Assembly (NCBI GenBank): GCA_013285655.1
Contig: JABDHI010000007.1
Span: 1 to 41,014, forward strand
Direction: 5' to 3'
From: Bacteroidota bacterium
GTDB taxonomy: Bacteria > Bacteroidota > Bacteroidia > JABEUT01
Length of the DNA stretch: 41,014 nucleotides
In this document: one piece after another, positions 9,257-41,014 of the stretch
Layout: every line of letters starts with the position of its first letter
How positions within the stretch are numbered: position 1 is the first letter of the stretch
Translations under genes and position numbers: made by a program
The notes under the pieces: model-generated
The model's input: the letters and a program-made list of their open reading frames with translations, nothing else
The model's database searches: none
Told to the model about the DNA's origin: nothing

Positions 9257-9330
9257 AGTCCCGTAGCTCAGTTGGTTAGAGCACTACACTGATAATGTAG
9301 GGGTCGGCAGTTCAACTCTGCCCGGGACTA
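9257..9330 (+). tRNA. tRNA-Ile (GAT)
   Basis: A 74-nt cloverleaf: acceptor AGTCCCG/CGGGACT (seven pairs), D stem GCTC/GAGC, anticodon stem CTACA/TGTAG with loop CTGATAA (anticodon GAT), T stem GGCAG/CTGCC, discriminator A. CCA is not encoded. It sits in the 16S-23S spacer as usual. Confidence 0.97.
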
Positions 9331-9370
9331 CAACAGATAAAGTATCTGTAGCAGTAATGAAACTCGATTT

Positions 9371-9444
9371 GGGGAATTAGCTCAGCTGGCTAGAGCACCT
9401 GCTTTGCAAGCAGGGGGTCATCGGTTCGACTCCGATATTCTCCA
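9371..9444 (+). tRNA. tRNA-Ala (TGC)
   Basis: A 74-nt cloverleaf: acceptor GGGGAAT/ATTCTCC with one G-T pair, D stem GCTC/GAGC, anticodon stem CCTGC/GCAGG with loop TTTGCAA (anticodon TGC), T stem ATCGG/CCGAT, discriminator A, no encoded CCA. The second spacer tRNA, 40 bp after tRNA-Ile. It is followed by an 8-bp hairpin gttacaca/tgtgtaac (9450-9470). Confidence 0.97.
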
Positions 9445-9474
9445 CAATCGTTACACAGTTGTTGTGTAACGCAC

Positions 9475-9545: not shown

Positions 9546-12446
<2,901 letters not shown>

Positions 12447-29367: not shown

Positions 29368-32300
29368 ATGAAAAATAAGTACAAAATATTTTTTCTTTTT
29401 ATAATTCTTCTAACAGGGAATTATTTCTGTATGGGGCAAAAAAATGTCCCGCCCTCTATTGCTGTAAATAAGGCTATTGCCCAAACAATAGATAATACCA
29501 ATGCGTATGTTAATTATACAGAGAATAAAGGCCAATGGCGCAGTAAAGTGCTATTTCAGGGAGACTTTAACGGGGGGCGTATTTTTTTAGAGAAAAATGC
29601 TTTCACTTATTTATTCTATCCCCCAGACGCCAGTGAACGTATGCATCCGGGGCCTGGTATTAACAAAAAAGATCTGAGAAGTTGCACGATGACCTTCCAT
29701 GCAGTGCGAATGGAGTTTTTAAATAGTATGCCAGCTGCTATTGAGGGTGGTGATTCGAAACCTTTTTATAGCAATTATTTTATTGGTAGCGATAGAACCA
29801 AATGGGCATCGGCTGCAAAGGCCTTCGGTAGTGTGAATTATAATAACATTTACCCGGGAGTTTCAGTAAAAGTATTTAGCGACCTGAGCAACGTGCGGTA
29901 TGATTTTCTAATAGAGCCACATACGAATATCTCTCAAATAAAGCTCCGTTTTGTGGGGCAGAATTACCTATCGCTAAATGGTGGGCAACTTATTATTCAC
30001 ACCCAAATTGGTGATATAGCGCAATTGCAACCGATAGCGTATCAGGAGATAAATGGGAAGAGAAAAAATGTAGTTTGTAGTTTTGTTTTAAAAGACGACC
30101 AAGTGGCTTTTGAGATTAATGGCAAGTATGATGCATCACAGCCATTGATTATAGATCCAACATTGGTTTTCGCTACGTTCACAGGTTCTACTGCCGATAA
30201 CTGGGGGATGAGCGCAACGTATGATGCGTATAGTAATGCATATACATCGGGCATATGTTTTGGTGTAGGGTATCCGGCTACAACCGGTGCTTTTCAATTA
30301 ACTTTTAACGGTGGTGGAATAGGTGGCTGGGGTAAGGATAGTGTTCTGTATCAGGGAACATGTGATGCCGCAGGGTTCGATATTGTGGTTTCAAAGTTTA
30401 ATCCTAGCGGGTCAACTTTATTATTTTCGACGTATTTGGGAGGAAGCGATAACGAAGAACCTCAGAGCTTAGTGGTAGATAACAGCAATAACCTACTTGT
30501 ATTTGGCCGGTCATATTCTAAAGATTTTCCTACTACGGCCGGTGCGTTTAGCAATGTTAACAGCGGTGGCGCAGATCTTGTAATTAGCAAACTCGACTCA
30601 AATGGAACTCAGCTTATAGCTTCTACTTATGTTGGTGGCTCTTCCGATGATGGTGTAAATATTTCATCTTTTGAAGACTCATTAGGCTCACTTAAATATT
30701 TTTATGCTGACGATGGAAGGGGTGATATTGTTGTGGATAATAGCAATAATGTATATGTAGCTTCCAGTACCAATTCTGTTGATTTTCCAATAACAAGCGG
30801 TGCTCTGCAATCAAGTATACGGGGCATGCAAGACGGCTGTGCTTTTAAAATGAATTCCAATTTATCTGCTATGGTTTGGAGTACATATTTGGGAGGAAGT
30901 GATAATGATGCAGCTTATAATATTGCCTTAAATACCAGTAACGAAGCGTATATTGTTGGTGGAACAGCAAGTAACAATTTTCCTACTACTTTAGGTACCA
31001 TACAGCCATGGTATAGTGGAAATATAGACGGATTTTTAGTGCATCTCTCTCCTTCAGGGAAAATGTTACAGTCAACATACCTGGGTACAGCTGGCTACGA
31101 TCAGGCATATTTTGTACAAACTGATAAATATAATCTGGTTTATGTATATGGTCAAACCAGTGGAAGTTATCCAATTACAAAAGGTGTTTATTCTAATGCG
31201 AATAGCGGACAGTTTATACATGAGCTGAACGGGATGCTTAATAAAACCATATTTTCAACTGAATTTGGTTCTGGCCGTGGGCACCCTGATATTGCGCCAT
31301 CAGCTTTTTTGGTGGATGAATGCCTTAATATATATATATCGGGATGGGGAGGTATGTTATACAGATATAATAGTTCAACAAGCAGTACTATTGGCTTGCC
31401 CACAACTCCTAATGCATATAGAACAACTCCCAATGTTTGTAATAGTTTTTATACCAACAATCAAAATAACGGAGAAGATTTTTATTTTATGGTGCTTGAT
31501 GCATATGCCGATTCACTTTTATATGCCACTTTTTTTGGTGCAACCACAGGTGGGCCCCCTAACGGCAGCCTTGCTCACGTAGATGGTGGTACCAGCCGTT
31601 TTGATAAGCGCGGTGCAATATACCAGGCAATTTGCGGAGGATGTTGGGGATATTCAGATATACCCACAACGCCTACAGCATGGTCTCGTACCAATGATGG
31701 TCCTAATTGTAATAACGCTCTTGTTAAGTTCCAAATGGATCTTTATGAGACTGTGGCTTCATTTATTCTTGCACCGGCAGTACCAGTGGGCTGTGCTCCG
31801 TTTGCGGTTACATTTAAAAATACTACCAGCAACGGGCAAAAGTTTCGTTGGATATTTGGCAATGGCGATACATCTAATAAAGCTACTCCAACTTATACCT
31901 ACACAAAGCCGGGTACGTATAATATTATGCTTGTTGCTACCGATTCTACCACCTGTAACCAAACCGATACCAGTTACGGAATCATTCGGGTAGTGGCACC
32001 ACCAAAGTTAACAGCACCATCAACTTTTGTTTGCTTGGGTGACAGTGTTGGGCTTAAAGCAACGAATAGCGATATATGTACGTTTACCTGGTCTCCTTCT
32101 GCCGGATTAAATGATACTACTATTGCAAACCCCAGGGCGGCGCCATTAACAACAACTAATTATTATGTAACGGTACATGATAGCTTCTGTTATGTAACCG
32201 ATACTGTAAATGTGGCTGTATACCGCAACATTACTCACGTCATACCAGATAGCGGGAAGCTCTGCCTGGGTGATTCACTGAAGATATATACAGATAGTAG

Positions 32301-32754
32301 TTACGTTAAGTATAGCTGGTCAACAGGGTCTAGCGGTCCTTATATTCAAGCCACAAAAGGTGGTTCGTACTTTGTTATAACTACCGATAAACACGGTTGC
32401 AAGGGGCAGGACAGCACAAAAATTACACCATTTACCAAAGTACCGCTGACTACGTTCGATACCATAATTTGTTTTGAAAAGATAGTGCATCTGCGTGTAG
32501 ATAGTGGGAATTATAAATACGCATGGGCACCTACGTTAGGCCTTAGTAATGGTTATATATTTAACCCTACTGCAAAACCTTTAATTACAACTGTATACAC
32601 GGTTACGGTTACTAATGGCGCATGCATAAGCAGAGATTCGGCCTTAATTGTGGTGAAGCCTACACCAGTAGTAAAAACAACACCTGATAGCGTAATGGCA
32701 TTACCTGGGCAAGTAGTTACACTTAATGCAACAGGCACACCGCCATTTACCTGA
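29368..32754 (+). CDS. SBBP/PKD-repeat secreted protein, main part of frameshifted T9SS gene
   Basis: Large exported protein (1128 aa to the premature stop). Signal peptide KYKIFFLFIILLTGNYFCMG. The N-terminal block YTENKGQWRSKVLFQGDF is the opening of the DUF7948-type domain. Next come SBBP beta-propeller repeats, several with S-T-Y-(L/V)-G-G (about residues 330-650). A PKD domain (GCAPFAVTFKNTTSNGQKFRW, FGNGDTSNKATPTYTYTKPG) follows near 810-880, and then PKD/Ig-like modules with FTWSPS and YAWAPT. The frame stops at a TGA (32752-32754) where one G is missing from an expected TGG Trp codon; the rest continues at 32754. Start: ATG 29368, preferred over TTG 29359 for the better signal peptide. 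Confidence 0.85.
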   Translation: MKNKYKIFFLFIILLTGNYFCMGQKNVPPSIAVNKAIAQTIDNTNAYVNYTENKGQWRSKVLFQGDFNGGRIFLEKNAFTYLFYPPDASERMHPGPGINKKDLRSCTMTFHAVRMEFLNSMPAAIEGGDSKPFYSNYFIGSDRTKWASAAKAFGSVNYNNIYPGVSVKVFSDLSNVRYDFLIEPHTNISQIKLRFVGQNYLSLNGGQLIIHTQIGDIAQLQPIAYQEINGKRKNVVCSFVLKDDQVAFEINGKYDASQPLIIDPTLVFATFTGSTADNWGMSATYDAYSNAYTSGICFGVGYPATTGAFQLTFNGGGIGGWGKDSVLYQGTCDAAGFDIVVSKFNPSGSTLLFSTYLGGSDNEEPQSLVVDNSNNLLVFGRSYSKDFPTTAGAFSNVNSGGADLVISKLDSNGTQLIASTYVGGSSDDGVNISSFEDSLGSLKYFYADDGRGDIVVDNSNNVYVASSTNSVDFPITSGALQSSIRGMQDGCAFKMNSNLSAMVWSTYLGGSDNDAAYNIALNTSNEAYIVGGTASNNFPTTLGTIQPWYSGNIDGFLVHLSPSGKMLQSTYLGTAGYDQAYFVQTDKYNLVYVYGQTSGSYPITKGVYSNANSGQFIHELNGMLNKTIFSTEFGSGRGHPDIAPSAFLVDECLNIYISGWGGMLYRYNSSTSSTIGLPTTPNAYRTTPNVCNSFYTNNQNNGEDFYFMVLDAYADSLLYATFFGATTGGPPNGSLAHVDGGTSRFDKRGAIYQAICGGCWGYSDIPTTPTAWSRTNDGPNCNNALVKFQMDLYETVASFILAPAVPVGCAPFAVTFKNTTSNGQKFRWIFGNGDTSNKATPTYTYTKPGTYNIMLVATDSTTCNQTDTSYGIIRVVAPPKLTAPSTFVCLGDSVGLKATNSDICTFTWSPSAGLNDTTIANPRAAPLTTTNYYVTVHDSFCYVTDTVNVAVYRNITHVIPDSGKLCLGDSLKIYTDSSYVKYSWSTGSSGPYIQATKGGSYFVITTDKHGCKGQDSTKITPFTKVPLTTFDTIICFEKIVHLRVDSGNYKYAWAPTLGLSNGYIFNPTAKPLITTVYTVTVTNGACISRDSALIVVKPTPVVKTTPDSVMALPGQVVTLNATGTPPFT

Positions 32755-33161
32755 CGCCTTCATTTGAATTAACTTGTTTTGATTGTCCATCACCTTCGTA
32801 TAAAGCAGATAGTAACAAAGTTTTTTATGTGAGCGTTGCAGATAGTGATGGATGCTTCGCTATGGATTCTGTAGTAGTTGATGTTTTACCGACTATATAT
32901 ATCCCTGATGCATTTACTCCTAATGGTGATGGTTTAAATGATGTATTCAGACCGAAGTTTACGGGCTATAGCAATATAGAGGTTTATATTTTTGATCGTT
33001 GGGGCCAGCTTATTTATAAATGGAACACTCTTGATGGCGGCTGGGACGGAACGGTGAATGGCAATAAGGTTCAGGAAGATACATACGTTTATATGATAAA
33101 GGCGGTCAGCTACCTGCATCAGTCATATCAGGCCATTGGCAACGTTACTGTAATAAGGTAG
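32754..33161 (+). pseudogene. Frameshifted 3' part with T9SS type B (CHU_C) sorting domain
   Basis: Continuation of the gene at 29368 in the third frame. From 32754 it reads T-P-S-F-E-L-T-C-F-D-C-P and on through DSDGCFAMDSVVVDVLP, then the gliding-motility C-terminal domain: PDAFTPNGDGLNDVFRPKF, VYIFDRWGQLIY, GWDGTVNGNKVQEDTYVY, ending in TVIR. That domain is the type B sorting signal of type IX secretion, so an intact protein would be exported to the surface. As read, the product loses this signal. It could be a real mutation or a one-base sequencing error. Confidence 0.85.
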
Positions 33162-33179
33162 TAATTCTCTCTTTTTCCC

Positions 33180-33209
33180 TTTGATTATTGGTTCTATTGA
33201 GTATTTTTG
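33180..33209 (+). promoter_or_regulatory. ricT promoter
   Basis: TTTG (33180-33183), 18-nt spacer, TAttTTTG (33202-33209): the best single-gene match to the consensus in the window, with the same spacing as the rRNA promoters. Confidence 0.7.
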
Positions 33210-33233
33210 CTTTCCCCATAAGGGATATGAAGT

Positions 33234-34403
33234 ATGGCTTGTAGTGGATGTTCGACAGGAAGAGGATGTGGTAGCGGCGGAGGTTGTTCTACCGGGGGTG
33301 GAGGCTGCAATAAGCTAAACGTTTTTGACTGGCTTGCCAACATGGAGCTGCCTTCGGGCCAAAAACCATTCGATATTGTTGAGGTCCGTTTTAAAAATAG
33401 CCGTAAAGAATTTTTTCGTAACCGTAATGGCTTACAACTGTTACTGGGCAATATTGTTGTTGTTGAAGCTGCACAAGGGTATGATGTAGGCGTTGTTTCT
33501 ATTTCGGGTGAACTGGTAAGGTTACAGATGCGCAAAAAGAAAGTTGCCGACGACCAGAATATTAAAGCCGTATTGCGTAAAGCTAGCCCTGCTGATATAG
33601 ATAAATGGCGTGATGCGCAAGAATTAGAAGTGAAAACATTGGTACGTGCGCGTATATTGGCTTCAAGCATGAAGCTCGATATGAAGATCAACGATATTGA
33701 GATACAAGGCGATAAATCACATATTGCATTTTACTATACAGCTCCAGGGAGGGTTGATTTTCGTGAATTGATCAAGGCATATGCTTCTGAATTCCGCTCG
33801 CGCATACAAATGTGGCAAATAGGCGAAAGGCAGGAAGCCGGCCGCTTAGGAGGGATTGGATCATGTGGCAGGGAGCTTTGCTGTTCAACCTGGTTAACAG
33901 ATTTCCGTTCGGTAAGTACAACCGCGGCCCGTTACCAGCAATTGGCACTTAACCCGGTTAAATTAGCCGGCCAGTGCGGCAAATTAAAGTGCTGTTTGAA
34001 TTTCGAATTAGATAGTTATTTGGATGCTCTTAAAGATTTTCCTCAACCGGGAGAACTAGAAACCGAAAAGGGAAGAGCTTATCACCAGAAGACAGACATA
34101 TTTAAAAAGATCATTTGGTACACTTACAGTGATGCTCCTGATAATTTTATAGCCTTAAGTACCGACCGTGTCAAGTACATTATGGACATGAACAAGAAGG
34201 GCAAAAAACCTGCTGACCTTGATGAATCAAAACCGGTTGAGAAGAAAGAAGTAGGTTATGTTGTTGGTAAACAAATGCCACCTTTAAGTACCTCAGAAAG
34301 GCCTAAGCCACAACAGCCACGTAACCAGCAGCGCTTGCAGCAACGTCCGCCGCGTCGTAAGCCACAGCCACCGCGCAGACCACCAAACAGAGAGCAGAAC
34401 TAG
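33234..34403 (+). CDS. ricT: PSP1/RicT-like iron-sulfur regulatory protein
   Basis: 389-aa member of the PSP1/YaaT family. The core (residues about 80-260) ends in two Cys motifs, GSCGRELCCSTWL (Cys211, 216, 217) and GQCGKLKCCLNFE (Cys248, 253, 254), typical of RicT, which in Bacillus subtilis joins RicA and RicF in an Fe-S complex affecting RNA processing, competence and sporulation. Its partners are not in this window, and its role in Bacteroidota is unclear. Unusual: a Cys/Gly-rich N-terminus with Cys3, 6, 12, 18 and 25, and a basic Pro/Arg/Gln tail from residue 330. Its TAG overlaps the convergent gene's stop in CTAG. Confidence 0.85.
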   Translation: MACSGCSTGRGCGSGGGCSTGGGGCNKLNVFDWLANMELPSGQKPFDIVEVRFKNSRKEFFRNRNGLQLLLGNIVVVEAAQGYDVGVVSISGELVRLQMRKKKVADDQNIKAVLRKASPADIDKWRDAQELEVKTLVRARILASSMKLDMKINDIEIQGDKSHIAFYYTAPGRVDFRELIKAYASEFRSRIQMWQIGERQEAGRLGGIGSCGRELCCSTWLTDFRSVSTTAARYQQLALNPVKLAGQCGKLKCCLNFELDSYLDALKDFPQPGELETEKGRAYHQKTDIFKKIIWYTYSDAPDNFIALSTDRVKYIMDMNKKGKKPADLDESKPVEKKEVGYVVGKQMPPLSTSERPKPQQPRNQQRLQQRPPRRKPQPPRRPPNREQN

Positions 34404-34831
34404 TTCTGCTTTTCCAGGTATTCTTTTAAAGAAGTGCCGATAATTGCGGTCCAACCCTGAACAAAATTGTTTTTAGCAAAATCTGGTCCATTAACAGCTA
34501 TTGATTCTATGCCTTCGTGAGTCAGTTTTAATCTTGTTTTCTTCCCTTCCTCAAATAATTCAAATGTTATAAACGATATTCCTTTGTATCCTTTATAACT
34601 CCAACTGTACGTTATTTTTTTGCCTTCTATTATATCAACCACTTTGCACAAATGCACATATACTCTATCCTCATTTCTTCCTTCAAACGAAAATTCAAAA
34701 CCTATTTGGGGTTTAAAATCATCTACGTCAAAGTACCATTTTTTCATTTCCTTTTTATTGGTAATGGCTTTCCATACAATAGGTAGAGATGCATTGTAGG
34801 TCCTCTCAATTACAAACGGTTCTGTCTTCAT
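34400..34831 (-). CDS. AHSA1/SRPBCC domain protein (last gene of ArsR operon)
   Basis: SRPBCC-fold lipid/small-ligand-binding domain of the AHSA1 type, 143 aa from the start at 34831: EPFVIERTYNASLPIVWKAIT, MKKWYFDVDDFKPQIGFEF, TRLKLTHEG. It differs from its operon relatives in lacking the WWGP signature (KKWYFD instead). An in-frame ATG at 34861 lies 1 bp after the DoxX stop and would add 10 residues; the family usually starts at KTEPFV. No enzyme activity is known for such domains; they bind hydrophobic ligands. Its stop overlaps ricT's by 4 bp. Confidence 0.8.
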   Translation of the reverse strand: MKTEPFVIERTYNASLPIVWKAITNKKEMKKWYFDVDDFKPQIGFEFSFEGRNEDRVYVHLCKVVDIIEGKKITYSWSYKGYKGISFITFELFEEGKKTRLKLTHEGIESIAVNGPDFAKNNFVQGWTAIIGTSLKEYLEKQN

Positions 34832-34862
34832 TTTTTGTTTGGTTAAATAGAAGAGTAACATA

Positions 34863-35246
34863 TTAGCTTTTAGCGGAGGTTTCTTTTAGTTTTTTGTGGT
34901 AGTAATAATAAGAACCAAAGAGAAACGCAAAAAAGATGAACATAAAGCCCCATTGCTTTGCAGGATCGCCCACTGCTATAGCAGAATAGGTAGCGCCGAT
35001 CAAATCGAATGCTATTCCGGCATAAGCCCATTCTTTAATTCGGGGGAAGCCCGGAATTAATAATGCAATACCGCCTAATATTTTAGCTACTCCTATAAAA
35101 GGCATTAAATAAGCGGGATAGCCTAAATGAGTTACCATTATTTTGGCTGCGTCGGGGCTGCTAATTACATCAGGAAGAGAAGTTAGAATAATAAATACAG
35201 CAAATAATGCGGTTAGGATCCAGTAGATAGTGTTTGTTTTTTTCAT
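34863..35246 (-). CDS. DoxX-like membrane protein
   Basis: 127-aa small membrane protein with four hydrophobic segments: IYWILTALFAVFIILTSL, YLMPFIGVAKILGGIALLIPG, WAYAGIAFDLIGATYSAIAV and FMFIFFAFLFGSYYYY. This is the DoxX-like pattern. Function is unknown for most members; some assist thiosulfate metabolism or redox homeostasis. It overlaps the DUF4287 gene by 4 bp (ATGA type), so translation is coupled, and belongs to the ArsR-AHSA1 operon. Confidence 0.85.
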   Translation of the reverse strand: MKKTNTIYWILTALFAVFIILTSLPDVISSPDAAKIMVTHLGYPAYLMPFIGVAKILGGIALLIPGFPRIKEWAYAGIAFDLIGATYSAIAVGDPAKQWGFMFIFFAFLFGSYYYYHKKLKETSAKS

Positions 35247-35479
35247 TTTTTAGGTTTGGTTTTAGGCGTTGGTTTATATTTTTTATTGGTTGTAAATGTT
35301 GCGTAAACGGCCATAGCATGCCCATGGCCCAAATCAAAATCTTCTTTTAACCAGTTTACAATTTGCATGGCCTTAACTCCAGGGCTCAAAAGGCCTTTCT
35401 TTTTAGCTAATTTTTTAAAGTCCTCCGGTGTTTTACCTGTTTTAGCTTTAATATTATCAATGTATGCTTGAAACGACAT
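35243..35479 (-). CDS. DUF4287 domain protein
   Basis: 78-aa protein with one DUF4287 domain: FQAYIDNIKAKTGKTPEDF, then LAKKKGLL and KAMQIVNWLKEDFDLGHGHAMAVYA. The family is of unknown function and commonly lies near SRPBCC and DoxX genes. The C-terminus is a Lys/Pro-rich tail (KYKPTPKTKPKK). It lies 4 bp after the hydrolase gene and overlaps the DoxX gene. Confidence 0.85.
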   Translation of the reverse strand: MSFQAYIDNIKAKTGKTPEDFKKLAKKKGLLSPGVKAMQIVNWLKEDFDLGHGHAMAVYATFTTNKKYKPTPKTKPKK

Positions 35480-35483
35480 TAGG

Positions 35484-36269
35484 TTAGTTTTTAAGTTTTT
35501 CTACAACTACAGGAACAAGTGCTTTCGGAGATACGTTATGGTTCTGGCCTTTTAAAATTACAAGATGCGAATTGGGCATAACTTCCGATAATTTTTTAAC
35601 TGCATTGCGTAAAGGTAAAGCACTTTTCTCTCCGCCCATAATAAAGGTCGGCACTTTAACCTGTGAAGCAAGTTTAACAGACACAGTGAACCCCTCCATT
35701 ACACTTGCATCGTAAGACAACGTATGTGCGGATGTTTTTAGTTTCTTCCACATAGGTAACAGGCTCATTATAACCGGAACAAACGCCGGCATTCCTACTA
35801 AATCTTTCATGAAAAATTTCACTGCGTCTCCTCGACGCCCTTCGCTTACCATTTTCTTAAACTGATCCACCGAATCGGCAGGTGGTGTGTGCCCGCCCAT
35901 GTTCGTAATGTAAGGAGGTTCATATAGCACCAATTTAGATATGTTTAGCCCTCTTGCCGCAGCCTGTAATGCTAAGCCGGCACCTGATGAAAAACCTAAT
36001 AAATGAACCGGACCGCCCACTTCTTTTATAAGCGCATCAATATCGTCCACTTCTTTATCTACAGAATAGGGTGCTGTGTCTGTACTCTCATTGCGGCCAC
36101 GTCGATCGTAGTTAACGACGGTGAAATACTTGGAGAGCATTTTACCGATCTCAGGTGTTGGGCCAAAAGCACGGCTACATAGTGCACCATCTATTATAAT
36201 TAACGGATGCCCGGTACCAATTTTGGTATAGCCTATTTTCGTTCCATCGCTTGATGTTACTGTGGCCAT
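35484..36269 (-). CDS. Alpha/beta hydrolase
   Basis: 261-aa alpha/beta-hydrolase-fold protein, no signal peptide. Catalytic triad candidates: Ser94 in the nucleophile elbow GFSSGAG, His244 in GQNHNVSP, and Glu214 or a nearby acid (GGEKSALPLR). The oxyanion region is around DGALCS, and YDRRGRNES is the usual strand-loop. Substrate unknown; the position in an operon of ligand-binding proteins suggests a small organic ester or related compound. It is 2 bp from the SRPBCC gene and 4 bp from the DUF4287 gene. Confidence 0.88.
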   Translation of the reverse strand: MATVTSSDGTKIGYTKIGTGHPLIIIDGALCSRAFGPTPEIGKMLSKYFTVVNYDRRGRNESTDTAPYSVDKEVDDIDALIKEVGGPVHLLGFSSGAGLALQAAARGLNISKLVLYEPPYITNMGGHTPPADSVDQFKKMVSEGRRGDAVKFFMKDLVGMPAFVPVIMSLLPMWKKLKTSAHTLSYDASVMEGFTVSVKLASQVKVPTFIMGGEKSALPLRNAVKKLSEVMPNSHLVILKGQNHNVSPKALVPVVVEKLKN

Positions 36270-36271
36270 GT

Positions 36272-36733
36272 TTAATGTTTTAAGGTTTCTAATAATGCTT
36301 CAAGCTTGTCAATACTCATGTTCCAACCTGTGCTAGCACCCTCAATATTATGAACTGCAGAAGGAATAATATTTGAAAACACGAAGTGCATCACCAATTT
36401 GGTTTTAGCGCCTTCTTCTACAAAGTTGATGGTATTCACAATGTCAAATAAATGGCCGCCGTCTTTATCAAGCGCAGCACTGGTGAATGCTATTTTGCTT
36501 GGCTTTGTTATCTCGCTAAATACACCATTCATGGGGTAATGCATACCATCAGGTGCTTTCATGTGTATAAGTATGTGCCCTTTAACACGTGCATCCCATT
36601 CGCATATTGGGTTGGTGAAGCCCTTGGGGCCCCACCATTTTTCAATGTGCTTCTGTTCGGTCCACGCTTGCCATACCAGTTCGCGGGGTGCGTTTAAAAC
36701 ACGAGTTATTGTAAGTTCTTTTGTGTTTGACAT
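36272..36733 (-). CDS. AHSA1/SRPBCC domain protein, single domain
   Basis: 153-aa SRPBCC protein of the AHSA1 type: LTITRVLNAPRELVWQAWT, HIEKWWGPKGF, FTSAALDKDGGHLFD and a C-terminal helix STGWNMSIDKLEALLETL. It closely resembles the first domain of the two-domain protein just upstream, and the DNA for the HIEKWWGP stretch is a near copy of those at 37139 and 37566. It is a likely product of duplication inside the operon. Gap to the upstream gene is 11 bp, to the hydrolase 2 bp. Confidence 0.85.
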   Translation of the reverse strand: MSNTKELTITRVLNAPRELVWQAWTEQKHIEKWWGPKGFTNPICEWDARVKGHILIHMKAPDGMHYPMNGVFSEITKPSKIAFTSAALDKDGGHLFDIVNTINFVEEGAKTKLVMHFVFSNIIPSAVHNIEGASTGWNMSIDKLEALLETLKH

Positions 36734-36744
36734 AATTGGAGGAA

Positions 36745-37698
36745 TTATTTGTTAATACTAGCAAGGTAGTCTTCAAGCTGTTTGAATGTGCCTGCAAAAC
36801 CTTGTTGCATCATACCATGCATGTTATTAAATACTTGCAACTGTTCTTCAGTAGAATTTATTGGGCCACCCCTCATAGCCATAGTTGTTTTGCCATTCTT
36901 TTCGGTGAGCGTAACAACATTCAATATTTCTAAGGGCCAGCTTGGCATAAATGGGTTAGGGGTTATACCTCCGTCTTTATCAGAGAAAGAATTGATAAAT
37001 ACCACACGTTCCGGTTCGGTCATTTCGCAGTAAACAAACCTACCCCACATTTCACCCATCGGGCTTTTAGCCGAGTAAAGAAACATGCCACCCGGTGAGA
37101 AATCAAAACGGCTTACCGTGATAGGTGCACCCGGAGGACCCCACCATTTTGCCAGGTGTTCGGCCTCTGTAAATACTTTGTAAACAAGATTACGAGGAGC
37201 ATTGAATTCTTTGCTGACGGTAAATTCTTTTCCTTCCTGAAGTTTCGCTAAATGTTCTTCCAGGCGTGTAAAAGTTTGTGCCTGACCTTCAATAGCGCCA
37301 TGTTCTTTAACAACATAATTGTATACATCTGCTGACTCAAACACCATTGACATGGTAAGTTTAGTTTTCCCTGCAAACTTTTCGAAAGTAACAGTACAAT
37401 AAAACTTAGGTTCAGTATGTGTGTATATAAGACGTTCCGGTTTTGATACTTCTGTATAAGTTATCTCATTTGGAAAATCCATACCATTAGGGCCATGCAT
37501 GGTGCAGAGCCATTTACTGCCTTCCTGCACCTTCATTTCGTGTGTTTCTGTGGTGAACCCTATAGGCCCCCACCATTTATCAATATGTTTTGGGTCGGTC
37601 CAAACATCCCAAACAAGTTCACGTGGAGCATTAAGGATGCGTGAAATTTTTATTTCACGGTTTGAGGTGTCTTTGGCTGCTTGTGTTTTAGTTGTCAT
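36745..37698 (-). CDS. Tandem AHSA1/SRPBCC protein, two domains
   Basis: 317-aa protein made of two AHSA1 domains. Domain 1 (about residues 12-160): IKISRILNAPRELVWDVWT, HIDKWWGPIGF. Domain 2 (about 163-315): FTVSKEFNAPRNLVYKVFT, HLAKWWGPPGAP, NPFMPSWPLEI. Most relatives have one domain, so it is a fusion of duplicated genes; each domain is a hydrophobic cavity of the START/Bet v 1 fold. Activity unknown. It follows the VOC gene by 26 bp. Confidence 0.85.
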   Translation of the reverse strand: MTTKTQAAKDTSNREIKISRILNAPRELVWDVWTDPKHIDKWWGPIGFTTETHEMKVQEGSKWLCTMHGPNGMDFPNEITYTEVSKPERLIYTHTEPKFYCTVTFEKFAGKTKLTMSMVFESADVYNYVVKEHGAIEGQAQTFTRLEEHLAKLQEGKEFTVSKEFNAPRNLVYKVFTEAEHLAKWWGPPGAPITVSRFDFSPGGMFLYSAKSPMGEMWGRFVYCEMTEPERVVFINSFSDKDGGITPNPFMPSWPLEILNVVTLTEKNGKTTMAMRGGPINSTEEQLQVFNNMHGMMQQGFAGTFKQLEDYLASINK

Positions 37699-37724
37699 AA
37701 TTAGCTGGTTTTATTTTATGTCAA

Positions 37725-38213
37725 TTATTTTTGATTATATGCCTTTTTCAGATCTGCAACTATTATTTTATCCATTTTAAGCATGGCTTGCATTACGCGT
37801 TGCGATTTTATTGGGTCCTTGTCATACAGCAGTTCTCCTAATGTTCTGGGAATAATCTGCCAGGTGATGCCAAATTTATCGTCGAGCCAACCGCACCTGT
37901 TCGTCTTTCCACCTTTCGATAATTTGGCCCATAATGTGTCAACGTCTTTCTGTGTATCGCAATCAACAAAGAAGGAAACAGCAGGAGAGAATTTAAAATT
38001 CGGTCCTCCATCTAATGCCATAAACTTTTGGCCATCGAGTATAAAAGTGGCGGTCATTACTTTTCCCTTCCCTCCGCCAAGGCGATTAATACTAACAATT
38101 TTAGAGTTCTTGAAAATAGAAGTATAGAATTTTACTGCTTCTTCTACCTTTCCATCGAACCATAAAAAGGGCGTAATGTTCGATCCTGTTTTTTTAACGA
38201 TTCTTTTTGCCAT
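37725..38213 (-). CDS. PhnB-like VOC superfamily protein
   Basis: 162-aa glyoxalase/VOC-fold protein of the PhnB (3-demethylubiquinone methyltransferase-like) type: ITPFLWFDGKVEEAVKFYTS, FILDGQKFMALDGGPNF, FGITWQIIPRTL. Despite the name such proteins lack a SAM site and are not proven methyltransferases; VOC proteins often bind a metal or act in detoxification. It overlaps the ArsR gene by 20 bp, so the two are translated together. Confidence 0.88.
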   Translation of the reverse strand: MAKRIVKKTGSNITPFLWFDGKVEEAVKFYTSIFKNSKIVSINRLGGGKGKVMTATFILDGQKFMALDGGPNFKFSPAVSFFVDCDTQKDVDTLWAKLSKGGKTNRCGWLDDKFGITWQIIPRTLGELLYDKDPIKSQRVMQAMLKMDKIIVADLKKAYNQK

Positions 38214-38553
38214 GGCTTTTCTTTTTAGGGATTGGTTTATTTTGACTTTGTAATGCTTCTAAGTATTGCTCCAATGCATCGAGTTTGGTTTCCCAGAATT
38301 TTTTGTACTGTTCTATCCACTCCGATACTTCGTGGAGTTTTTCCAACCTGGCTTCGCAGTACCTTTCACGGCCATGCTGCTCAATAGTTATTAGGCCGCA
38401 TTCGGTAAGTATTTTAATATGCTTTGATATGGCAGGCCTGCTTACATCAAAATTTTCGGCTAAGCCATTAGGTGTCATTTTTTCTTTGGCCAGCAAACCT
38501 AATATGGCCCTTCTGCTTGGATCAGCTATGGCCTGAAATACGTCTCTTCTCAT
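38194..38553 (-). CDS. ArsR-family transcriptional repressor
   Basis: 119-aa winged-helix regulator of the ArsR/SmtB type. Helices: FQAIADPSRRAILGLLAKEK, MTPNGLAENFDV and the recognition helix SRPAISKHIKILTECG (38-53), then the wing ITIEQHGRERYCEA. No ELCVCD metal box, so it is probably not an arsenic or zinc sensor; it belongs to the group that heads AHSA1 operons. The C-terminal part is a helix ending in a basic tail. It is first gene of an eight-gene minus-strand operon and probably represses it through the inverted repeat at 38575-38617. Confidence 0.92.
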   Translation of the reverse strand: MRRDVFQAIADPSRRAILGLLAKEKMTPNGLAENFDVSRPAISKHIKILTECGLITIEQHGRERYCEARLEKLHEVSEWIEQYKKFWETKLDALEQYLEALQSQNKPIPKKKSHGKKNR

Positions 38554-38574
38554 AATAGGTTAAATCTATAATGC

Positions 38575-38617
38575 GTAACTAATCGGTTACAAATGTAATA
38601 CGAAACCGATTGGTTAC
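38575..38617 (-). promoter_or_regulatory. ArsR operator flanking the promoter -7 box
   Basis: Inverted repeat gtaactaatcggtt (38575-38588) and aaccgattggttac (38604-38617), 13 of 14 matches, 15-nt spacer. On the minus strand the spacer contains TAcaTTTG (plus 38590-38597), a full Bacteroidota -7 box, so a protein bound to the arms would cover the core promoter. The ATG of the repressor gene follows about 30 nt after the expected transcription start. Confidence 0.75.
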
Positions 38618-38687
38618 ATAACAAAAAATAAAATTATTTTAACTTAGTGGATATAATTCGCTGAAAATGAGGTAAATTATTTTTAGG

Positions 38688-39644
38688 CTAGTATCTGCCT
38701 TTGGTATATACCCAGGCTTCCTGTTGCACATTCTTACGGAAAGAATCGAGTTGTGCTTCAGCTTCGGTGTAGGAATTGTAATTACCACAGCCAACTATAT
38801 ATAGGCCTTCGGGAGTTTTACCTACTATTACTGCATTTACATTTTTACTTTTCAAAATGCTTATCATATTCAACGCATTATCATAAACCTTAAAGCAGCC
38901 GGCCACAATATGATATGCCGATGTGGTAGAGGTTTCAATAGTAAGGGCCTTGGGTTGCTTAACATAAATAACCAGCGAATCCTTTGGTATAGGCCTGTTT
39001 ATATTGGCAAGGCTATTATCGGTTGTGAAAACATATTGTGCGGCCTCTTTCTTCGAGAAGATATTAAGGCTGGAATATTCTTTGGCAATATTAGGCTGGT
39101 TAAATGCGAACCAGAATGTAGAAGCTATCAATGCGCCAACAGTTGCAGCTATAGCATAAGGGCGTATACGGGAACGTTCTTTATGAAGCTGCACTACAAC
39201 ACTTTCTTTTTGCTCTGGTTTTTCAGTTTCTACAGGCAAGCTATAGAATGCTGATAGGCCAAATGCATCGGGTAAGTAGTTAACTTTTTCATCGGCCTGA
39301 AAAACGAGGTTATTACTCTCATCCATATATAACGCACCAATGTTCTCAAATACTACTCTTCTCGATTCTTTTAATTCTTTGCGGTAACGATCTACCTCCA
39401 ATGCAATATGCTTTAGCGCCTCTGCATAAGTCAGTTGTTCGCGTATAGAAAGGTGATTGGCTAAAAGCCCATCATTCTGTGTTAATCCTTTATTAAAAAG
39501 TATCTTTTTGCGGGGTGGTTCAAACAGGTGCTTAACCTCATCGACACGTGCAGGAGCATAATTGCCAATAAATCCTCCAAAGTCGGGGACTATTACGCAG
39601 TCGTGTTCAAATAATAGGTCGCTTATATGTTCTTCTATCTGCAT
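38688..39644 (-). CDS. HU-CCDC81 and SPOR domain membrane protein
   Basis: 318-aa protein. Residues about 1-60 (HISDLLFEHDCVIVPDFGGF) and 60-125 are the two HU-CCDC81-type domains seen in Bacteroidota, related to HU DNA-binding folds. A single membrane helix (YAIAATVGALIASTFWFAF, about 163-181) precedes a periplasmic linker, and the end (AYHIVAGCFKVYDNALNMIS, to residue 318) is a SPOR domain, which binds denuded peptidoglycan at division sites. It may link chromosome or cytoplasm to septal cell wall; its partners are unknown. A -7 box TAatTTTG lies at plus 39659-39666. Confidence 0.88.
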   Translation of the reverse strand: MQIEEHISDLLFEHDCVIVPDFGGFIGNYAPARVDEVKHLFEPPRKKILFNKGLTQNDGLLANHLSIREQLTYAEALKHIALEVDRYRKELKESRRVVFENIGALYMDESNNLVFQADEKVNYLPDAFGLSAFYSLPVETEKPEQKESVVVQLHKERSRIRPYAIAATVGALIASTFWFAFNQPNIAKEYSSLNIFSKKEAAQYVFTTDNSLANINRPIPKDSLVIYVKQPKALTIETSTTSAYHIVAGCFKVYDNALNMISILKSKNVNAVIVGKTPEGLYIVGCGNYNSYTEAEAQLDSFRKNVQQEAWVYTKGRY

Positions 39645-39658
39645 AGGTCTGATAGGCC

Positions 39659-39666
39659 CAAAATTA
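39659..39666 (-). promoter_or_regulatory. -7 promoter box of SPOR protein gene
   Basis: TAatTTTG on the minus strand, 14 nt before the ATG at 39644. No clear -33 element. Confidence 0.5.
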
Positions 39667-39696
39667 ACTAATCTTTTGTAAATCCATAGAAATCAA

Positions 39697-39855
39697 GCCA
39701 CAGATTCGCAGATTAAGATTAATTGCTAAAAATAATATCAATATCCGTAAGACTAAGGGACACAGATTTCGCTAACTATTTGCTATGTGTAGTAATTCTC
39801 TGTGAAAATTCTCTAAGAACAAATAATATTAATTTTTAATCTGTGAATCTGTGGC
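39697..39855. repeat. Dispersed palindromic element, copy 2
   Basis: Left arm gccacagattcgcagatta (39697-39715) and right arm taatctgtgaatctgtggc (39837-39855), 18 of 19 matches, spacer 121 nt. Partial internal copies (gacacagatt at 39759 and ctctgtgaa near 39798) suggest insertion of one element into another. It fills the gap between kdsB and the SPOR gene. Confidence 0.8.
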
Positions 39856-39864
39856 TACTAATGG

Positions 39865-40593
39865 CTAGATCTTTTGTAAATCTTCAGGAGTATCTATCGA
39901 TACTGATTCCTGCTTGGTTAAATCTACATAAATAGGATAGCCATTCTCCAACCAACGTAACTGTTCCAGCGATTCTGCCAGTTCGAGGGTTGAAGGCGGA
40001 AGGGATACCAATTTTTCAATTATTGGGGTCCGGAAAGCGTATAATCCTATATGTTTAAGATAAGTATGCTTGCTTATCCAATCTACTCCATCGGCATCTC
40101 TGCAAAACGGTATAGGGGAACGGCTGAAATAAAGAGCCTCGCCATTATATTTGCGTGCTACTTTAATAATAGAGGGATTGTGAAGTTCTTTTTCGCTGCT
40201 GAGCACTCTTGCCAGGGTCGATATTTGCACGGCATTATTCAAAAAACAACCTACTACCTTATCTATCTGTTCAGGGTGTATAAAAGGTTCATCACCTTGC
40301 ACATTAACAACTACATCCCAATTAGCCTTACCCAGTTTTTCAAGTGCTTCAACGCAACGTTCGGTTCCATTTTTATGGTGGGCAGATGTCATTATCACCT
40401 TACCGCCAAAGCTTTCCACTTCTTTAAAAATACGTTCATCGTCGGTGGCAACAACTACACTGCCTAATGAGGTAGATTTAGAAGCTTGCTCGTAAACGCG
40501 GCGTATCATAGTCTTGCCCTGTATATCAATAAGGGGTTTACCCGGAAAACGGGTAGAGGCAAAGCGTGCAGGTATTATACCAATTGCGTTCAA
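39865..40593 (-). CDS. kdsB: CMP-KDO synthetase
   Basis: 3-deoxy-manno-octulosonate cytidylyltransferase: activates KDO with CTP for lipopolysaccharide core synthesis. 242 aa, usual length. Start motif AIGIIPARFASTRFPGKPL, the loop VVATDDERI, NVQGDEPFIHPEQI, and YFSRSPIPF with KHIGLYAF. The start is a TTG at 40593; the family begins right at this position and no in-frame ATG or GTG fits. A -7 box TAttTTTG lies at plus 40608-40615. Together with the LpxL-type gene it shows an LPS-bearing outer membrane. Confidence 0.95.
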   Translation of the reverse strand: MNAIGIIPARFASTRFPGKPLIDIQGKTMIRRVYEQASKSTSLGSVVVATDDERIFKEVESFGGKVIMTSAHHKNGTERCVEALEKLGKANWDVVVNVQGDEPFIHPEQIDKVVGCFLNNAVQISTLARVLSSEKELHNPSIIKVARKYNGEALYFSRSPIPFCRDADGVDWISKHTYLKHIGLYAFRTPIIEKLVSLPPSTLELAESLEQLRWLENGYPIYVDLTKQESVSIDTPEDLQKI

Positions 40594-40607
40594 TGGCGTA
40601 TTTTTTA

Positions 40608-40615
40608 CAAAAATA
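40608..40615 (-). promoter_or_regulatory. -7 promoter box of kdsB
   Basis: TAttTTTG on the minus strand, 14 nt before the TTG start codon. Confidence 0.5.
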
Positions 40616-40678
40616 AGCTTTTGGAGTTACTCCTAAACAGCCTAAATTACTATTGGTTTAATTACTCGTTATGTGTTT

Positions 40679-40716
40679 CCCCTCTCTATTTTATAGAGGG
40701 GGGGGGTAGGGGTGAG
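40679..40716. repeat. Palindrome with G9 tract between cinA and kdsB
   Basis: The plus strand reads cccctctctattttatagag followed by nine Gs (40698-40706) and taggggtgag. The stem is ccctct/agaggg with an AT-rich loop. It lies directly after the cinA stop and resembles the CCCCTCTCC...GGGGTGAG intergenic repeats common in Bacteroidota. It has no T-run in the cinA direction. Confidence 0.5.
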
Positions 40717-40718
40717 TA

Positions 40719-41014
40719 TTATTTAGCAAGAATTTCCTTACGCAATAAATTTAGGGCTGTTAAGCCGGTTACTACAATGTTCCTTTCCCTATCGCCCCCA
40801 AATTGAAAGCGTTTGCTAAATACCTTAGTTGGGGTTGCAATTGCAATCCAAACAGTACCAACTGGTTTTTCGGCTGTTCCGCCATCGGGGCCCGCAATAC
40901 CCGATACGGCAATACAATATGTAGTATTCAATTTATTTCGGCCATTAGCTGCCATCAGTTCTACGACTTCTTGCGAAACGGCACCATACTTTTGAAGTAT
41001 CTCTTTGCTTACAC
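40719..41014 (-). CDS. cinA: CinA C-terminal domain, nicotinamide-nucleotide amidase, partial
   Basis: 3' part of a CinA-like protein; the 5' part lies beyond the window edge. The frame is open to base 41014 (V-S-K-E-I-L-Q-K-Y-G-A-V-S) and ends with TAA at 40719-40721. The core CIAVSGIAGPDGGTAEKPVG is the family signature of the amidase domain, which deaminates nicotinamide mononucleotide in NAD recycling; the missing N-terminal part is usually a MoaB-type domain (ADP-ribose pyrophosphatase in CinA). Whether it is the full CinA fusion cannot be seen. Confidence 0.92.
   Translation of the reverse strand, partial: VSKEILQKYGAVSQEVVELMAANGRNKLNTTYCIAVSGIAGPDGGTAEKPVGTVWIAIATPTKVFSKRFQFGGDRERNIVVTGLTALNLLRKEILAK

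Follow-up and report, generated by a model that had tools for sequence, protein, structure and literature searches.

An enlarged ArsR-AHSA1 operon of a Bacteroidota genome with a putative double operator that recurs across the class

The window analyzed here, a stretch of 41,014 nucleotides, comprises positions 1–41,014 of the forward strand of contig JABDHI010000007.1 from Bacteroidota bacterium (JABEUT01; assembly GCA_013285655.1). It contains a row of eight minus-strand genes, which encode an ArsR-family repressor, a PhnB-like VOC-fold protein, a two-domain and a single-domain AHSA1 protein, an alpha/beta hydrolase, a DUF4287 protein, a DoxX membrane protein, and a divergent AHSA1 protein. 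Sequence comparisons indicate that this locus is genuine and recurs as an enlarged form of the known ArsR-AHSA1 module, and that it carries a new and strong regulatory signature, two putative operators that bracket the promoter. As the best explanation, to which we assign a probability of roughly 0.55, we propose an enlarged ArsR-AHSA1 (ArsR-COG3832) operon that would be repressed by its own ArsR, be inducible, and bind and modify a hydrophobic or reactive compound. The original prediction of a possibly undescribed system was too strong, because the ArsR-COG3832 (AHSA1) pair was described in 2009 by Makarova et al. as toxin-antitoxin-like and, more plausibly, as an antibiotic resistance system (PMC2701414), and has been studied in mycobacteria. 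The ligand sensed by such pairs was already presented as an open question in that source. In the open-licence literature searched, we found no account of either the enlarged and reshuffled gene set or the double operator.

Putative double operator at the operon promoter

The putative −7 promoter element TACATTTG (38590–38597, minus strand) matches the Bacteroidota consensus TAnnTTTG (PMC7366714). It is bracketed by two imperfect 16-bp palindromes, a putative outer operator O1 upstream of it (GTAACCAATCGGTTTC, 38602–38617, minus strand) and a putative inner operator O2 (GTAACCGATTAGTTAC, 38575–38590, minus strand), within which transcription is predicted to start. Position 38617, up to which the cluster had been predicted to extend, is the outer edge of an operator. 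A TTTG at 38625–38622 could act as a loosely spaced −33 element. Promoters of the sigma-70 type, which are not expected in Bacteroidota, were no more frequent than in shuffled sequences. A palindrome overlaps the operon’s own consensus-matched promoter, and the layout with O1 and O2 on either side of the −7 element is shared with five genus relatives and with the 42 composite sites described below.

Because the sites lie over the putative promoter, bound ArsR would keep its own operon from being transcribed. The model for this interpretation is the tested case of Rv2034, which autorepresses through CCGTAAGT-N4-ACTTACGG, i.e. GTAAG-N6-CTTAC (PMC3338718). Like the window operon, the Rv2034-Rv2035-Rv2036 operon has ArsR at its head, followed by the gene for a START-type protein (Polyketide_cyc2, assigned to COG3832 in PMC3968373), and carries at its own promoter a palindrome with 5-bp arms and a 6-bp spacer. 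Whereas one palindrome is reported there, the window has two; moreover, the arms read GTAAC in the window and GTAAG in the mycobacterial operon, and the other partner genes differ.

Double sites were present at seven of the 11 inspected heads of AHSA1-linked ArsR operons, namely in the window, in the genus relatives G003, G004, G005, G007, and G008, and in genome G021. In G003, G004, and G007 a RibD-like gene comes first (RibD_C by Pfam in G004, identified by our own profile in the other two), and in all three cases the double site precedes this gene and not the ArsR gene.

The composite operator across the class

The seven founding sites were combined into a composite operator pattern, which, where the gap is a single base, also covers the first position of O2, and 395 genomes of the class were searched with it, using the reversed pattern as control. 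This search yielded 42 sites in 39 genomes, compared with none for the control. ArsR coding sequence was located ≤400 bp from the site in 36 of the 42 cases, and the downstream run included ArsR at 40 and AHSA1 at 41 of the sites (33/35 and 34/35, respectively, if the founding sites are left aside). The first and last base of O1 and the last base of O2, which are positions outside the pattern, were G, C, and C in 42/42 sites. According to class-wide family labels based on our own profiles, which were made from the window proteins and the loci compared, the downstream runs also held VOC (17), DoxX (13), DUF4287 (7), RibD (5), and hydrolase genes (4). Since the composite sites head ArsR/AHSA1 runs and the site stays frontmost even before a RibD-like gene, ArsR most likely represses the whole operon.

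At one site (L195; genome G250, contig C16, site at 1699, minus strand) the composite operator precedes a lone AHSA1 gene, and in this genome another copy of the operator heads an ArsR-AHSA1 pair (L194), an arrangement that looks like regulation in trans. Another locus (L205; genome G122, contig C58, site at 914 in the turned locus) shows the reversed order of AHSA1, ArsR, and an open reading frame labeled as VOC-like by eye. AHSA1 and VOC were found in one open reading frame at seven of the 42 operator sites (L054, L177, L182, L183, L184, L198, and L203) and in two of 80 loci from a wider scan (L145 and L166; see below). Such fusions suggest that AHSA1 and VOC proteins may act on the same compound.

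In the own genome (G000; 69% complete, so that this result is not final) the composite pattern matches this operon alone and the single-site pattern does not exceed its control (see below), and we therefore discarded the idea of a wider regulon. A second run lies in the same genome on contig C40 (L063, 4387–8374, minus strand) and comprises ArsR, two AHSA1, two DUF1801-OmdA, DoxX, and two VOC-type genes. Its double site has the same layout at the promoter but a different, GTAGYYAAATAACTWC-like sequence. The presence of two paralogous modules, each with its own type of site, suggests that the circuits are insulated from each other.

Conservation in the genus and accessory genes

Ten other genomes of the genus were queried with the two-domain AHSA1 protein, and a strong match was obtained in five of them, the relatives G003, G004, G005, G007, and G008. 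The absence of cluster conservation that the original prediction had named as a refuting outcome was not observed: all eight families occur together in G008 and G007, seven in G004, and six in G005, while G003 contains the start of the set and then reaches a contig end. In G008 the cluster has the same position between the same two flanking genes, plus an extra VOC gene. G007 contains more genes in addition to the eight families, and in G007, G004, and G005 the gene order is changed and the neighbors are others. Between the window and G008 the ratio of nonsynonymous to synonymous change (pN/pS) ranged from 0.09 to 0.32 in the row of eight, and the flanking pair gave 0.09 and 0.17; synonymous change was near saturation, and the two-domain AHSA1 gene was compared over 293 of 317 codons. 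These values indicate that the eight genes are under purifying selection. Together with the joint recurrence of the same families in relatives, they also indicate a co-occurrence beyond chance.

A wider scan with the two-domain AHSA1 protein gave 437 confirmed loci, of which the best 80 were kept and their gene families assigned by a six-frame domain scan. ArsR was in the cluster at 66 of these 80 loci, followed by AHSA1 in 59 and by VOC in three of the 66 clusters. In total, the loci held DoxX (20), VOC (19), RibD (8), hydrolase (6), and DUF4287 (6); these counts lean on the genus relatives, because five of the 80 loci (L097, L098, L106, L119, and L120) appear to repeat G008, G005, G007, G004, and G003. 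Counted within versus beyond 3 kb of AHSA1 (426 and 574 kb of sequence, respectively), the families numbered 68 and 0 for ArsR, 30 and 6 for VOC, 20 and 0 for DoxX, 9 and 2 for RibD, 12 and 1 for the alpha/beta hydrolase, and 7 and 0 for DUF4287. The accessory genes near AHSA1 were mostly on the same strand. After grouping of the loci by hand, an ACC-N5-GTT-type site was detected upstream of ArsR in 17 of 26 Bacteroidota regions, compared with one, zero, and three in permuted controls.

The window shares with the ArsR-COG3832 module as described in 2009 both core families, a co-directional compact run, multiple genome copies, and an ArsR protein without metal motif. Several copies per genome, a common but not universal trait of that module, are present here with the window and contig C40. 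In contrast to the described module, the window has eight genes with four AHSA1 domains, a hydrolase, DUF4287, DoxX, and the double operator, and VOC lies between ArsR and the first AHSA1 gene, so that AHSA1 does not adjoin ArsR.

Several observations weigh against the self-repressed enlarged operon that we propose. The eight-gene set is not fixed in the genus: the near-complete genomes G002 and G006 gave only weaker matches, which lie in smaller ArsR-AHSA1 runs of another kind, and G001, G009, and G010 (57–84% complete) had no two-domain AHSA1 match. Nor does the composite operator catch every ArsR-AHSA1 operon. Among the remaining inspected operon heads, only the inner site is kept in G015, the sites in G002 and on contig C40 differ in sequence, and none is seen in G006. 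One composite site (L210; genome G151, contig C58, site at 10012, minus strand) has neither ArsR nor AHSA1 downstream, the next open reading frame encoding a membrane-protein-like product of 220 amino acids. The single-site pattern was not enriched in the own genome, with four matches versus six in the reversed control, and the ACC-N5-GTT-type signal was weaker in the regions grouped as other than Bacteroidota (18/42 versus 0, 6, and 11 in permuted sequences). None of the five accessory families occurred in 48 of the 80 loci of the wider scan, and four or five of them were combined in only three loci, all from genus relatives. DUF4287, which we detected in 22 of 149 class genomes (24 loci), was accompanied by a same-strand ArsR or AHSA1 gene at a distance of up to 1.5 kb in only four of the 23 loci outside the window; it is therefore not tied to the ArsR-AHSA1 system, and we rejected it as a fixed partner class-wide.

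Gene row and predicted proteins

The eight open reading frames extend from 38553 down to 34400, and all family assignments exceed the Pfam cut-offs, which bears out the strand and families given in the original prediction. In order, the minus-strand genes encode ArsR (38194–38553, 119 amino acids; HTH_5, 48.6 bits), the VOC-fold PhnB-like protein (37725–38213, 162 amino acids; PF06983, 3-dmu-9_3-mt, 147.7 bits), the two-domain AHSA1 protein of the START/Bet v 1-like fold (36745–37698, 317 amino acids; two matched stretches, 160.3 bits), the single-domain AHSA1 protein (36272–36733, 153 amino acids; 98.2 bits), the alpha/beta hydrolase (35484–36269, 261 amino acids; Abhydrolase_6, 51.1 bits), the DUF4287 protein (35243–35479, 78 amino acids; 87.5 bits), the DoxX_2 membrane protein (34863–35246, 127 amino acids; 74.3 bits), and the divergent AHSA1 protein (34400–34831, 143 amino acids with the likelier start; 65.3 bits). 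As predicted, the ArsR and VOC genes overlap by 20 bp and the DUF4287 and DoxX genes by 4 bp. Gaps of at most 26 bp had also been claimed, and those between the listed open reading frames are indeed 26, 11, 2, 4, and 1 bp. However, to judge by where the sister copy in G008 begins, the start of the last AHSA1 gene is probably 34831 and not the listed 34861, and the last gap would then be 31 bp.

At its stop the last AHSA1 gene shares 4 bp with the convergent RicT gene. A terminator-like palindrome (AGCAGAACTAGTTCTGCT, 34393–34410, minus strand) lies at the operon end, which is also the end of the RicT gene; it is the sole minus-strand match among three in 34000–39000, a total not above that of shuffled sequences (mean 4.1). 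The flanking genes belong to other families, with a HU/SPOR-domain gene upstream and the RicT gene downstream. An Rfam search of positions 30000–41014 gave no match to a structured RNA. Elsewhere in the window, tandem genes for tRNA-Ile and tRNA-Ala are located at 9257–9445, a pair that is common content of ribosomal RNA spacers.

ArsR has two cysteines, C52 and C67, which by our reading of the sequence would flank the presumed wing, one on each side. Inspected with the classical helix-3 cysteine motif as yardstick, the protein is without this metal motif. It scores 72.6 with NCBIfam HTH_metalloreg (cut-off 55). The SdpR-type autorepressors (NF033789) belong to the same superfamily of repressors, and ArsR reaches 64.7 bits with their model, a partial score below the cut-off of 100.

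The nearest solved chains were 1u69 for the VOC protein and 3r0v for the hydrolase. Ser94, His244, and Glu117 of the hydrolase, which by inspection and family knowledge we take to be catalytic, are identical in four aligned copies, in which the usual acid after strand 7 was not seen. The DUF4287 model has four helices at moderate confidence (mean predicted local distance difference test score, pLDDT, 75.4); we ignored its match to 6xr1, which covers 28 residues only and whose chain name suggests a designed protein. A sequence search found no solved relative of DoxX.

Proposed mechanism and alternative explanations

According to the favored explanation, an ArsR dimer would bind both palindromes around and over the promoter and thereby shut off its own operon; a small molecule or stress would inactivate ArsR and so allow joint expression of all eight genes. 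The compound would be bound or modified by the VOC protein and by the four AHSA1 domains, whose fold is noted for its hydrophobic cavity; the alpha/beta hydrolase would attack it, and DoxX would act at the membrane. In favor of this explanation, Rv2034 is reported to be elevated in medium containing palmitic acid (PMC3338718), and the smegmatis homolog is said to be expressed upon amikacin treatment (PMC9416677). Inducible handling of a small molecule, possibly for detoxification, is our best guess because the row combines ligand-binding folds with a hydrolase and a membrane protein. The “sense-bind-degrade” role put forward in the original prediction is hypothetical; the interpretation given there is, as a whole, partly supported by our analysis.

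The AHSA1 and VOC proteins might instead be carriers or cyclases for an endogenous compound of fatty acyl or polyketide-like type in a lipid or secondary-metabolite operon, which we consider rather unlikely, although it is the strongest of the alternatives. The structure model of the two-domain AHSA1 protein (mean pLDDT 92.3) matched best, among solved structures, the di-domain aromatase/cyclases, with BexL and StfQ first, as well as DynU16 and single-domain AHSA1 proteins including 3uid. The latter is Ms6760, partner of an ArsR in Mycobacterium smegmatis (PMC9416677). The reported rise of Rv2034 with palmitic acid would also fit this alternative. However, the two-domain hits superposed poorly over the whole chain (template modeling score, TM, 0.35–0.38), and we thus dropped a true aromatase/cyclase. 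CalC/DynU16-type proteins of enediyne loci confer resistance by self-sacrifice, in which the protein is cut by the antibiotic that it disarms. The likeness to them extends to the AHSA1/START fold, DynU16 (6v04, dynemicin locus) being a top fold match, but not to the sequence (12% identity). The aromatase/cyclase and DynU16 matches of the model also count toward the operon role that we favor, but with such scores they do not set a function. No synthase was present among the eight operon proteins and two flanking proteins scanned, and the reshuffling of gene content between close relatives is unlike a biosynthetic pathway.

Still less probable, in our estimate, is a thiol or electrophile sensor, in which C52 and C67 would react with an oxidant or electrophile and ArsR would release an operon whose products remove electrophilic or reactive carbonyl-like compounds. 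Of the 26 Bacteroidota ArsR rows from the two-domain AHSA1 scan, 24 have both cysteines, versus two of 42 other rows, with the rows grouped by hand, and VOC, DoxX, and RibD-like partners would fit this function. In contrast, just 19 of 43 operator-anchored ArsR rows have both cysteines, and 21 have C and Y. That C52 faces C67 would follow from the hairpin register. RexT provides a precedent for a cysteine-based ArsR switch, yet its cysteines are adjacent on helix 3 and in different places from C52 and C67 (PMC8960804). An extension of this idea, which is more speculative again, is a class-wide self-repressed stress module, in which ArsR would sense an electrophile or oxidant via the wing cysteine pair and START-like, VOC, hydrolase, RibD-like, and DoxX proteins, as interchangeable parts, would capture and destroy the compound.

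We regard as improbable a toxin-antitoxin module in which AHSA1 would be the toxin and ArsR both antitoxin and autorepressor, the remaining genes being passengers. This function is listed as a candidate in PMC2701414, Rv2034-Rv2035 is a predicted pair in PMC3968373, the title of a crystal-structure paper names Msmeg_6760 a toxin, and the own genome contains at least one further ArsR-AHSA1 run. The reading is weakened by the finding that in Mycobacterium smegmatis MSMEG_6760 (AHSA1) was not toxic, whereas ArsR was toxic alone or together with it, the reverse of the prediction; according to the same source, other groups saw no effect (PMC9416677). In addition, a row of eight genes that encode four AHSA1 domains as well as other folds is unlike a two-gene toxin pair.

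A metal-responsive ArsR operon is very unlikely despite the HTH_metalloreg score above the cut-off, given an ArsR without the helix-3 cysteine motif, as reported for the AHSA1-linked subfamily (PMC2701414), no metal transporter or arsenate reductase family among the operon proteins in the Pfam scan, and seven metals that gave no relief of Rv2034 reporter repression (PMC3338718).

Implications

ArsR-AHSA1 pairs occur in many bacteria, and the composite operator, which has an ArsR or AHSA1 gene downstream at 41 of its 42 sites, offers a direct handle on them. An operator-based reporter can be screened for inducers, and the composite pattern yields, for each genome, a list of candidate operons with their accessory genes. 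Exchangeable VOC, DoxX, RibD-like, hydrolase, and DUF4287 genes under one switch would link poorly understood families to a common condition. If the class-wide stress module were true, it would be a modular, operator-tagged counterpart of glutathione-type detoxification.

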